Translations under genes and position numbers: made by a program | Assembly (NCBI GenBank): GCA_017640785.1 | Contig: JAEPPZ010000003.1 | Span: forward strand, 239,998 to 303,997 | DNA: 64,000 nucleotides | Origin: Balneola sp. | Lineage (GTDB): Bacteria > Bacteroidota > Rhodothermia > Balneolales > Balneolaceae | Direction: 5' to 3' | In this document: positions 541 through 60,180 of the stretch, piece after piece | How positions within the stretch are numbered: the first letter of the stretch is position 1 | Layout: every line of letters begins with the position of its first letter | The notes under the pieces: model-generated | Database searches by the model: none | Told to the model about the DNA's origin: nothing | Seen by the model: only the letters and a program-made list of their open reading frames with translations

Positions 541-564
541 TACAAGTAACATAGTGTTACGGTT

Positions 565-610
565 TTAAGGTGTTATGGTGGCGTAAATTTAGACCACCAT
601 AACACCTTAA
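565..610. repeat. 17-bp perfect inverted repeat between convergent genes
   Basis: The arms are 565-581 and 594-610, perfectly complementary over 17 bp, with a 12-nt loop. They contain the unit GGTGTTA/TAACACC. The hairpin lies between two convergent stops, so it may act as a bidirectional transcription terminator, but there is no clear T-run. A related hairpin with the same TAACACC unit is at 56801-56853, which suggests a dispersed intergenic repeat. Confidence 0.75.
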
Positions 611-622
611 CACTACCGCACC

Positions 623-4397: not shown

Positions 4398-4445
4398 TTT
4401 ATCTTTTTTTGTAAGGATTATGACTCCAAGCTGTCTAACTATAGA

Positions 4446-4855
4446 GAATTTTAAATTTTTGATTCTAAATTTTGAATTATGCCTAAAGATAACCTTATAC
4501 AGCAGAAAAGTTTTGATTTCTCTTTGATGATAATACAACTCTATATTTCTTTGAAAAAAGAGAAAGAGTTCGTTCTATCTAAACAACTGTTAAGAAGCGG
4601 AACGAGCATTGGAGCGAATATCGAAGAAGCTATTGCTGCGCAATCCAGAAAAGATTTTATTCATAAAATGTCTATTTCATCAAAAGAAGCCAGAGAAACA
4701 GCCTATTGGTTAAAACTTCTTCAAAAAAGTGATTTGACTAATATTGATGTATCTTTATACTTGAATGAAATTGATCAGATAATCAGAATTATTACATCGA
4801 TTATAAAAACGTCACAATCTTCAATTCAGAATTAATAATCCAAAATTCATAATTC
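4446..4855 (+). mobile_element. 410-bp unit: IVS-type gene with 33-bp terminal inverted repeats
   Basis: The segments 4446-4478 and 4823-4855 are inverted copies that match at 27 of 33 positions without gaps. The four-helix-bundle gene starts at the base after the left repeat and ends within the right repeat; recN begins two bases beyond. A gene-less relative of the repeat lies at 33438-33498. This organisation resembles the intervening sequences found in bacterial 23S rRNA genes, which carry the same protein family between paired stems, but here it lies between two protein genes. Mobility is inferred, not shown; no convincing target duplication is seen. Confidence 0.6.
4479..4835 (+). CDS. 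Four-helix bundle protein of the S23 / 23S rRNA intervening-sequence family
   Basis: A 118-residue all-helical protein. It carries the family core LLRSGTSIGANIEEAIAAQS at about residues 38-57, then KDFIHKMSISSKEARETAYWLKLL across residues 59-82 and a C-terminal helix containing IIRIITSIIKTS. This family (TIGR02436-type) occurs inside 23S rRNA intervening sequences in Leptospira, Coxiella and others and is structurally related to the Avd accessory protein of diversity-generating retroelements. Its molecular function is not known. The ATG abuts the left inverted repeat and the stop lies in the right one. No reverse transcriptase or variable repeat is nearby, so an Avd role is unlikely. Confidence 0.88.
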   Translation: MPKDNLIQQKSFDFSLMIIQLYISLKKEKEFVLSKQLLRSGTSIGANIEEAIAAQSRKDFIHKMSISSKEARETAYWLKLLQKSDLTNIDVSLYLNEIDQIIRIITSIIKTSQSSIQN

Positions 4856-32612: not shown

Positions 32613-33395
32613 CTAGCGTTGTGATTGAATTGCTTGGAATATACGTAATGAATCGGAAGCTTCCTTAACATCATGCACACGAAGTATTTTTACTCCTTTC
32701 ATGAGTGCATCATAGTGAACTGAAACCGTTCCGATCAATCGATCATCAGCAGGTCTCTCATCCAGAATTTTTCCGATCATCGATTTTCGTGATGCTCCAA
32801 TTAACACAGGAACGCCAATTTTTGTGAATTTATCAAGGTGGGCGAGTAATTTTAAATTGTGCTCCTGAGTTTTGCCAAAGCCAATACCCGGATCGATAAT
32901 TATGTTCTGCACTCCTTTTGACCGTGCAAAAGCGATCTTTTTTTCAAAAAACTGAAGTAAATCTTCTATAACATTATCGTATTTTGGAGCATCCTGCATT
33001 GTTTTTGGATCTCCCTGAGAATGCATTATCACATAGGCTGCGTCATGTTCAGCTGCAAGTTCTGCCATAGCAGGAGACTTCTGTAAACCGCTTACGTCAT
33101 TTATTATACCGGCACCAACTTTCAGTGCTTGTTCAGCTACTTTGAACTTAGTTGTGTCAATAGAATAAATAAGCTCAGGGAATGTCTGAACAGCTTTTTC
33201 AAGAACAGGAATAACACGATCCATTTCTTCCTGTTCAGAAACCGGATCCGAGCCCGGACGGGTAGACTCTCCACCAATATCAATGATAGAAGCCCCATCT
33301 CTGCGCATGATATGTATTCTGTCGAGTGCGCGCTCTACATGGATATACTTACCACCATCACTGAATGAATCAGGAGTAGCATTTATGATCCCCAT
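32613..33395 (-). CDS. folP: Dihydropteroate synthase, 5' end possibly altered by a repeat
   Basis: Folate-pathway enzyme joining p-aminobenzoate to dihydropterin pyrophosphate. Seen are MGIINATPDSFSDGGKY, DIGGESTRPGS, INDVSGLQ, IIDPGIGFGKTQEHN, and LIGASRKSMIG. The ATG at 33395 is the conserved internal Met; homologues have 15-25 more residues before it. Upstream, the frame continues as coding-looking sequence (ISIPDFSTPQI before MGIIN), with no standard start codon, to a stop at 33441-33443 that lies in the arm of a hairpin repeat. The enzyme may therefore start at a rare codon such as ATT 33437 or be slightly truncated. Confidence 0.93.
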   Translation of the reverse strand: MGIINATPDSFSDGGKYIHVERALDRIHIMRRDGASIIDIGGESTRPGSDPVSEQEEMDRVIPVLEKAVQTFPELIYSIDTTKFKVAEQALKVGAGIINDVSGLQKSPAMAELAAEHDAAYVIMHSQGDPKTMQDAPKYDNVIEDLLQFFEKKIAFARSKGVQNIIIDPGIGFGKTQEHNLKLLAHLDKFTKIGVPVLIGASRKSMIGKILDERPADDRLIGTVSVHYDALMKGVKILRVHDVKEASDSLRIFQAIQSQR

Positions 33396-33437
33396 TATTT
33401 GGGGAGTGGAAAAATCTGGTATTGAGATAGTTTTAAT

Positions 33438-33498
33438 TAATTATGAATTTTAAATTATGAGTTCTGAATTCATCATTCAAAACTCATAATTCATAATT
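33438..33498. repeat. Gene-less hairpin copy of the IVS-unit terminal repeat
   Basis: A 61-bp hairpin: the left arm 33438-33470 and right arm 33474-33498 pair at 21 of 25 aligned positions, with a 3-nt loop. The reverse complement of the left arm matches the right terminal repeat of the S23/IVS unit (4823-4855) at 28 of 33 positions without a gap. It lies immediately after the ferredoxin stop codon and supplies the in-frame stop upstream of folP. It looks like a non-autonomous relative of that unit. Confidence 0.75.
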
Positions 33499-33500
33499 TC

Positions 33501-33836
33501 TTACCACTCTTCCTGTAGCTCACTTAATTTATCTTCTTTGGTTGCCCATTCATCTGCATCAGGAAGTGCATCTTGAGTTTCATTGATTACTCTGTCTTCC
33601 CACTGTTCAGCAAGACGTTCATTCAACTCAATATAATGTTCCCACTTTTCCGGCACTTCATCATCCGGATAAATAGCTTCTACCGGACATTCAGAAACAC
33701 ATGCATCACAATCAATGCACTCGTTTGGATCGATAGTAAGAAAATTAGGTCCTTCCCGAAAAGCGTCTACAGGGCAAACAGCAGCGCAATTAGTATATTT
33801 ACATTGAACACAAGGTTCAGTTACAATGTAGGGCAT
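33501..33836 (-). CDS. fdxA: 7Fe-type ferredoxin FdxA
   Basis: A 111-residue electron carrier with eight cysteines in two clusters: Cys9, Cys12, Cys17 and Cys21, then Cys40, Cys43, Cys46 and Cys50. The arrangement CVQCKYTNCAAVCP followed by CIDCDACVSECP is the 7Fe (3Fe-4S plus 4Fe-4S) type with the usual acidic C-terminal extension. Electron partner unknown. It is separated from folP only by the hairpin repeat; the hairpin sits directly after its stop, so it may double as its transcript end. Confidence 0.93.
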   Translation of the reverse strand: MPYIVTEPCVQCKYTNCAAVCPVDAFREGPNFLTIDPNECIDCDACVSECPVEAIYPDDEVPEKWEHYIELNERLAEQWEDRVINETQDALPDADEWATKEDKLSELQEEW

Positions 33837-56800: not shown

Positions 56801-56853
56801 AACTATAACACCATCACACTATAACACTTCTTTAGTGTGATGGTGTTATAGTT
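56801..56853. repeat. 21-bp perfect inverted repeat before rsmD
   Basis: Arms at 56801-56821 and 56833-56853 are perfectly complementary over 21 bp with an 11-nt loop. They contain the TAACACC/GGTGTTA unit also seen in the hairpin at 565-610. It lies between DUF3822 and rsmD. The absence of a T-run argues against a simple terminator, though partial attenuation is possible. Confidence 0.8.
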
Positions 56854-60064: not shown

Positions 60065-60082
60065 TAGATAATCCAATAAAAT

Positions 60083-60170
60083 TTGAAACAGAATTATCAA
60101 GATTTCTGGATTTACAGAATTTAGTTCCCTTAATTGTACTAATTCTTTAATTCTATAAATTCTGCTTCAA
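60083..60170. repeat. Intergenic inverted repeat
   Basis: TTGAAACAGAATT (60083-60095) and its reverse complement AATTCTGCTTCAA (60158-60170) match at 12 of 13 positions. Between them are further AATTC-type tracts that could pair more weakly. The element fills the gap between the aminotransferase and AlkD-like genes. No coding sequence inside. Confidence 0.5.
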
Positions 60171-60180
60171 CCACCTTTGT

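Follow-up and report, generated by a model that had tools for sequence, protein, structure and literature searches.

A bare heptad hairpin beside folP points to a little-known class of IVP-linked hairpin elements that replace one another

Related genomes carry quite different hairpins at one and the same spot, which suggests that these hairpins are elements of a scarcely known class and take each other's place. The DNA analysed, here called the window, is a 64,000-nt stretch (C12:239998-303997) of a 3.39-Mb genome in 18 contigs (G000), which was compared with the genus mates G001-G007. It contains a bare hairpin at 33438-33498 that, on balance, appears to be a gene-less member of a class of hairpin elements linked to IVP genes, this reading including the binding and exchange steps proposed below. 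Most of the IVP genes tested lie between inverted arms, and gene-less hairpins with the words of these arms occur dispersed in gaps between genes. As judged by sequence comparison, the place of a hairpin is kept from species to species, but what stands there is often an unrelated hairpin, and a promoter-like motif is common to part of the IVP genes, to genes of three other families, and to ssb, yifB/comM, radC, an integrase gene and, in one species, recA.

Table 1 Positions of the features of the window
Feature	Position	Strand	Remark
Bare hairpin with GGTGTTATGG word	562..613	.	Word also around IVP copy L007 (by eye)
Promoter-like motif TGTAAGGATT..GTCTAACT	4410..4440	+	Ahead of the IVP unit; 2/18 mismatches to the consensus
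Left arm of IVP unit	4446..4478	+	
IVP gene, four helix bundle protein (TIGR02436 / PF05635)	4479..4835	+	Solved relative 2rld
Right arm of IVP unit	4823..4855	+	Extends over the 3' end of the IVP gene and stops 1 nt short of the recN ATG
folP-like gene	32613..33395	-	Downstream of the hairpin; name consistent with the ORF
Bare hairpin under study	33429..33508	.	Core arms 33446-33469 / 33475-33498
Heptads AATTATG AATTTTA AATTATG AGTTCTG	from 33439		In the hairpin under study
Ferredoxin-type gene (ORF reading)	33501..33836	-	Stop codon adjoins the hairpin
Second bare hairpin, GGTGTTAT word	56801..56853	.	Detector and comparison
Imperfect gene-less hairpin	60082..60172	.	Below the detector threshold; found by comparison

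The sequence-only reading had described the hairpin as two arms with no gene between them and a loop of 3 nt. The two arms and the lack of a gene were borne out, but the best ungapped arms (the core arms of Table 1), which are 88% complementary, leave a loop of 5 nt. In the left arm, identity was 0.69 at a lag of 7 nt and 0.79 at a lag of 14 nt. The minus-strand RNA fold of the hairpin reached -24.4 kcal/mol, where shuffled sequences averaged -8.6 (z -6.5) and none of 200 was as stable. A hairpin detector returned five hairpins in the window at a score of at least 14 and none in five dinucleotide shuffles. At a score of at least 13 it returned 29 hairpins in 400 kb of other G000 stretches against 2 in three shuffles, where the 29 include some ordinary hairpins of terminator type and about half of the stretches had been picked for an IVP gene or a pattern match. 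A 33-mer search with shuffled controls, which the same reading had proposed as a check, gave 14 matches with up to 8 mismatches in 464 kb of G000, the query and its kin in the window counted; five shuffled genomes gave 0, 0, 1, 0 and 0 matches, and five shuffled queries gave none. The 464 kb comprised the window and 20 stretches, about half of them picked for an IVP gene or a match to the 21-mer search, so that the density of matches is not a genome-wide one. The 21-mer search of the whole genome, with up to 3 mismatches, gave 14 matches at about 10 separate places, the hairpin and the IVP arm both among them, and 1 match with the reversed control. A chance palindrome in AT-rich intergenic DNA would fit the AT-rich, low-complexity arms, but it is ruled out by the shuffled folds (0/200), the shuffled searches (0-1 matches) and the resemblance to kin described below, and its probability is practically negligible. 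The Rfam scan of the window returned only a tRNA at gathering score and no family for the hairpin.

The reverse complement of 33438-33470 matches the right arm of the window's IVP unit (4823-4855) at 28 of 33 positions, as first reported. When the hairpin was compared with the significant arms from 69 gene-bearing units, this unit again came out closest (L008, z 7.8, equalled in 0 of 50 shuffles). Both repeats had been said to touch the start region of a flanking gene; this holds for the right arm of the IVP unit, which adjoins the start of recN, but the hairpin adjoins the stop codon of the ferredoxin-type gene and not the start of folP. The proposed pair of an autonomous element and a MITE-like relative stood in part: the hairpin and the ends of the IVP unit are repeats of one class, and gene-bearing and gene-less forms recur in G000, with a GxxExxY unit in both states at one site. 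However, the genome holds 14 PF05635 (IVP) genes with many words rather than one unit, the IVP protein matched no nuclease or transposase family of NCBIfam, and neither an empty site nor a target duplication was seen for the hairpin, since other hairpins occupy its spot in the relatives. One autonomous element plus one MITE is too small a picture. The three G000 IVP genes tested encode TIGR02436 four helix bundle proteins, and by eye nearly every copy is surrounded by inverted arms whose word differs each time (AATTATGAATT, TTAGCTGTTAGC, GGTGTTATGG, AAAGTGAAAAGTG and CAGGAGTTCAGAATT among them).

A model in which the IVP unit of the window was the single parent of the hairpin is unproven. An IVP gene precedes recN in seven of the eight genus genomes, with a different word in some, and the unit is therefore old and need not be the hairpin's direct parent. 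In G002 and G006 another IVP with another word stands before recN, beside a right arm nearly or fully identical to that of G000. IVP genes are absent at several orthologous sites (L006 in G003 and G005; L003 in G001, G002 and G006; L011 in G006; L008 in G007). At one locus, G000:C14:220758-226839 (L114), four IVP genes lie within 6 kb, each set between host genes and carrying a word of its own. Comparison of the L011 locus with the gene-free allele in G006 (L120) suggested by eye that the right arm is now N-terminal coding sequence of the downstream gene.

Arms significant beyond the 99% shuffle level were found at 25 of 40 IVP loci of the genus, against about 10% of mismatched flanks; arms were not significant at the other 15, nor at 13/30 GIY-YIG, 13/25 PF13366 and 21/30 Y1 loci. 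With the window's IVP as query, 80 loci were obtained from named genomes, 76 with enough flank and 4 of the same genus. These came mostly from Bacteroidota, and also from Ignavibacteria, Peregrinibacteria, Armatimonadetes, Syntrophomonadaceae and a deltaproteobacterium. Arms reached p < 0.05 in 66 of the 76 and beat all 100 shuffles in 50. Median arm alignments were 20.5 for own flanks, 15.5 for mismatched flanks and 11.0 for shuffles, a control that is not clean because the words are common to these loci, so that mismatched flanks also align well. For relatives within the phylum, p < 0.05 was reached in 19 of 27 loci with full flanks for the L007 type and in 21 of 26 for the L001 type. The proteins are common: among 394 genomes sampled from the phylum, 227 contained relatives of one IVP query and 249 contained relatives of another.

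Significant IVP arms are made up of degenerate 7-nt repeats. Over 116 significant arms, identity was 0.595 at lag 7 and 0.584 at lag 14, compared with 0.33, 0.37 and 0.31 at lags 6, 8 and 13 and about 0.27-0.29 at the rest. In an overlapping set sorted by family, the 7-nt period occurred only in IVP arms (0.54, 63 arms); GxxExxY arms had a weaker 9-nt period (0.42, 11 arms), and no such period was found in GIY-YIG (20 arms) or Y1 arms (10 arms). The word tracks the IVP protein subfamily (Mantel r 0.553 over 95 representatives, 0 of 2000 permutations). After correction for the base composition of the individual arm, the similarity of words was 0.41 for proteins less than 40% identical, and 0.45, 0.63, 0.68 and 0.78 at 40-50%, 50-60%, 60-70% and 70-85% identity. 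Between Balneolaceae and outside loci it was 0.628 for 417 pairs with at least 50% identity against 0.412 for 1538 pairs below 40% (0 of 2000 permutations). In these comparisons the protein groups are clustered, since the loci were drawn from three protein queries and the genus set. From this co-variation we infer that the IVP protein reads the heptad word.

The same co-variation would be expected if IVP were an RNA-binding regulator, with bare heptad hairpins as regulatory sites in UTRs and word switching as rewiring between paralogues; one IVP tested (L001) also matches, below cut-off, the model of the DGR accessory protein Avd. A regulon, however, does not explain why the same gaps also hold hairpins of nuclease-linked families or why unrelated hairpins are nested, and we regard this explanation as improbable.

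The gene-bearing and gene-less states can be compared directly at the imperfect hairpin near the end of the window, whose arms recur in G001, G002, G004 and G006 at this site around a unit with a GxxExxY (PF13366) gene. By eye, the gene in these four genomes sits after a complete hairpin and has a third arm behind it, so that the two states would be accounted for by a loss or gain between the repeated copies of the arm. This pair of alleles belongs to the GxxExxY family and not to the IVP family of the hairpin under study. The GGTGTTAT word of the second bare hairpin is also found in G001, G004 and G006, with a diverged form in G002. As separate observations, a GxxExxY (PF13366) domain runs in frame into a RecQ-helicase-like part at L358 (G000:C1:72245, and also in G001, G002 and G004), giving an open frame of 883-896 aa behind the shared motif, the helicase being a reading of the sequence. 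Beside a GIY-YIG gene, L217 holds tandem copies of a hairpin of about 150 nt, TGTCATTTCGA...GAGAAATCTAAAG.

MITEs are short and non-coding and have inverted repeats in common with a gene-bearing unit. The hairpin is such a non-coding copy sharing inverted ends with the IVP unit of the window, and its 21-mer matches are dispersed. The would-be parent, however, encodes a four helix bundle protein and not a transposase. No live mobility, empty site or target duplication was seen for the hairpin, target duplications having been looked for by eye; the four close relatives all carry another hairpin in the gap, so that no empty allele is available for comparison. An ordinary MITE moved in trans by an unrelated transposase, with the IVP gene as a passenger, would account for the dispersed inverted-repeat copies, and Y1 transposase genes exist in the genus. 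Yet the significant Y1 arms are different and non-heptad, no target duplication was seen, and a word that co-varies with the IVP protein is unexpected for a passenger, all of which makes this origin very improbable.

The hairpin lies between co-directional minus-strand genes, 3' of the stop of the ferredoxin-type gene (fdx) and 5' of folP. In this gap, hairpins that directly follow the fdx stop were detected in five genomes, and three unrelated words occur among them: AATTATG in G000, GGTTAATGGTTATT in G002 and G004, and GTCATTCCGAACTTG...CAAGTTCAGGATGAC in G001 and G006. All four close relatives thus have an unrelated hairpin there, while the flanks are 84-95% identical among the five genomes. 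In G003 (TTATTGGTTGATAG), G005 and G007 weaker stems were seen by eye.

A systematic run over 225 G000 gaps yielded 76 with comparable orthologous gaps, 11 with a G000 hairpin and 65 without. Swaps were found in 6 of the 11 hairpin gaps, and a hairpin was gained in 1 of the 65 hairpin-free gaps. Counted as species pairs, the orthologue had the same hairpin in 23, a different one in 11 and none in 6 where G000 has a hairpin; where it has none, 154 pairs had none and 1 had gained one (1/155). Another detectable hairpin was thus present in 11 of the 17 orthologous pairs that lack the G000 hairpin. The contrast between hairpin gaps and hairpin-free gaps gave a Fisher p of 2e-12 on pairs, which within a gap are not independent, and of 1.4e-5 on gaps; the swap count is of 11 gaps, from stretches partly chosen around IVP genes. 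By eye, the six pairs scored as having none consist of four sub-threshold or nested hairpins, one diverged relative and one near-empty site. In the L114 gap a GIY-YIG-type hairpin is nested, by eye, in the loop of a heptad hairpin in two species. Simple descent of the alleles along one species tree was rejected, as the sharing patterns conflict between sites: the groups are {G000},{G002,G004},{G001,G006} at folP, {G000,G001},{G002,G004,G006} at L099:6545 and {G000,G002},{G004,G006},{G001} at L101:6778. The conflict may reflect recombination or incomplete sorting.

Such turnover could also arise if the fdx-folP gap merely needs some stem-loop, as an mRNA 3'-end protector or processing site, whose sequence is free to change without any special mobility. 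The position right after a stop codon between co-directional genes, the stem-loops retained there by the relatives and the strong RNA fold agree with such a need. Against it, the stems of sister species consist of wholly unrelated words between flanks that are 84-95% identical and do not differ by compensated substitutions, and the words recur elsewhere and match gene-bearing units. The site is not terminator-like, there being no intrinsic terminator (a G+C-containing stem followed by a T run) in 33350-33560, which leaves other 3'-end roles unaffected. We consider this explanation unlikely.

A promoter-like motif, TGTAAGGA-N(14-20)-TCTTACT, has 18 copies in G000 and 97 in the eight genomes together, against 1 match for the reversed control. 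Although spacers of 14-20 nt were permitted, all 97 sites have a spacer of 15 nt (30 sites) or 16 nt (67 sites). Forty-seven of the 97 lie within 300 nt upstream, on the same strand, of genes of four unrelated and often hairpin-bracketed families, where 0.12 were expected: 18 are at IVP, 19 at GIY-YIG, 6 at Y1 and 4 at PF13366 (GxxExxY) genes. None lies upstream of the four families on the opposite strand. Among the other 50 sites, of which 49 were inspected, NCBIfam matches above cut-off identified one target each of ssb, yifB (comM being a label given by reading), radC, an integron integrase and, in G005, RecA. Below cut-off were a further REP-type Y1 gene, DUF559 genes and a ComEC-like protein; the remaining targets were a TPR protein, GIY-YIG remnants, contig ends and genes of no assigned family. 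At the 40 IVP loci of the genus, the motif with up to 2 of 18 mismatches was found upstream in sense in 13, the window's IVP included, and never antisense or downstream; the other 27 had at least 6 mismatches. Counting against the preferred reading, the exact motif accompanies only 18 of 83 IVP matches, and 6 of the 14 G000 IVP genes have it at up to 2 mismatches.

A LexA/SOS operator was rejected as the meaning of TGTAAGGA because the Balneolaeota LexA motif given in the published account (PMC7739468) is TTACACATATTTTWTACATA and because the 15/16-nt spacer is more promoter- than operator-like. With this mismatch and the DNA-processing targets, the motif may be the promoter of an alternative-sigma regulon for DNA uptake or single-stranded DNA, the sigma factor being putative and the function read from gene content alone. 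The copies at contig ends (L365, L402, L409, L410) are identical or almost identical to the one at the GIY-YIG unit in L364, a pattern that recent multi-copy elements would give; in some the gene is cut off. DUF559-type genes stand directly behind the motif at L359 (G000:C2:124910), L420, L432 and L435; that at L359 lies, by eye, between CCCCTTCGAAGGGG-type palindromes and is perhaps a member of a fifth hairpin-gene family. The TPR protein is conserved after the motif in five genomes (L374, L407, L422, L429, L438), and its anti-sigma-like N-terminus and single transmembrane stretch, as read from the sequence, make it a possible regulator of the regulon.

On the reading preferred here, the element proteins would be made while single-stranded DNA is processed. 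The arms of the hairpins would fold on single-stranded DNA, and IVP oligomers would bind their own heptad arms when these are single-stranded and extruded. IVP could then help its own hairpin to enter or convert an existing hairpin dock, and existing hairpins would be the sites at which, in the course of transformation or recombination, elements come in, drop out or take each other's place. Loss of the gene between repeated copies of an arm may give rise to gene-less forms, which would persist through recognition in trans. The hairpin under study probably moves in this manner, with single-stranded DNA during transformation or recombination. A wider picture is possible, and is offered tentatively: IVP, GIY-YIG, GxxExxY, Y1 and perhaps DUF559 genes would form a community of mobile elements of a new kind, each with its own hairpin grammar (7-nt words for IVP, read by a 7-nt recognition code, and words of about 9 nt for GxxExxY), which compete for hairpin docks and are co-switched with genes for single-stranded DNA and transformation, hairpins homing onto hairpins at DNA uptake. 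The intervening sequences (IVSs) of 23S rRNA would be its rRNA-borne members.

Cyanobacterial STRR repeats are heptamers, and a 2008 paper reportedly described very small mobile repeats in cyanobacteria. Intergenic direct repeats of the heptamer TAACTGA are described in Beggiatoaceae, Cyanobacteria and Bacteroidetes (PMC4679880); they resemble the arms here, as far as that account goes, in their 7-nt unit, intergenic position and patchy spread across phyla, whereas the repeats found here vary in sequence from unit to unit, form palindromes and go with IVP genes. The resemblance no more than hints at a link between such repeats and the IVP heptads. REP/REPIN-RAYT systems (PMC3116915, PMC3733652) are, like the units here, dispersed intergenic palindromes with a dedicated protein gene; the partner in this case is a four-helix-bundle protein instead of a Y1 transposase, the arms are heptad, and replacement is site for site. 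RAYT/REPIN was also rejected as the mobiliser of the hairpin: Y1 genes are present, but the arms of the significant Y1 units are of another kind and lack the 7-nt period, and the hairpin's best match is an IVP unit.

The S23/IVP intervening sequences in the 23S rRNA of Coxiella and others have been called a selfish element, of unclear function and origin, in one account (PMC4990558). By that description they share with the units here the protein family, a gene between complementary ends that form a long stem, and a sporadic distribution at few fixed sites. Gene-bearing units have this arrangement at the 25 genus loci with significant arms, while the hairpin under study is gene-free and lies between protein genes, not in rRNA. 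The system here differs also in its 14 genes with different words, its heptad arms and its gene-less relatives. IVP and GIY-YIG insertions, two of the same protein families, are reported in rRNA genes of CPR bacteria, mostly at the top or base of rRNA stem-loops (PMC11270868), and heptad arms are not mentioned in the available text of that source. The hairpin thus resembles REPIN/RAYT systems and rRNA IVSs in its working, but defining features of MITEs, REPINs and rRNA IVSs are absent or left open, excision by RNase III being one of those of rRNA IVSs. A search of the open-licence literature found no paper on a link between IVP and heptads or on hairpin replacement, a result that does not establish novelty. 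Since the heptad word goes with the protein and is also found in hairpins that lack a gene, the IVS/S23 question would become open to a direct binding test. Hairpin replacement, with a motif common to four families and DNA-processing genes, would suggest a shared lifestyle of many small Bacteroidota palindromes.

The ferredoxin-type gene has matches in all eight genus genomes. The hairpin lies about 43-50 nt upstream of the annotated ATG of folP. The conserved FolP strand seems to begin 5' of that ATG, and conserved folP coding probably starts upstream of it. In G000 no ATG, GTG or TTG occurs from the upstream in-frame stop to the annotated ATG (33395-33440), and G003, G005 and G007 have an upstream start codon.
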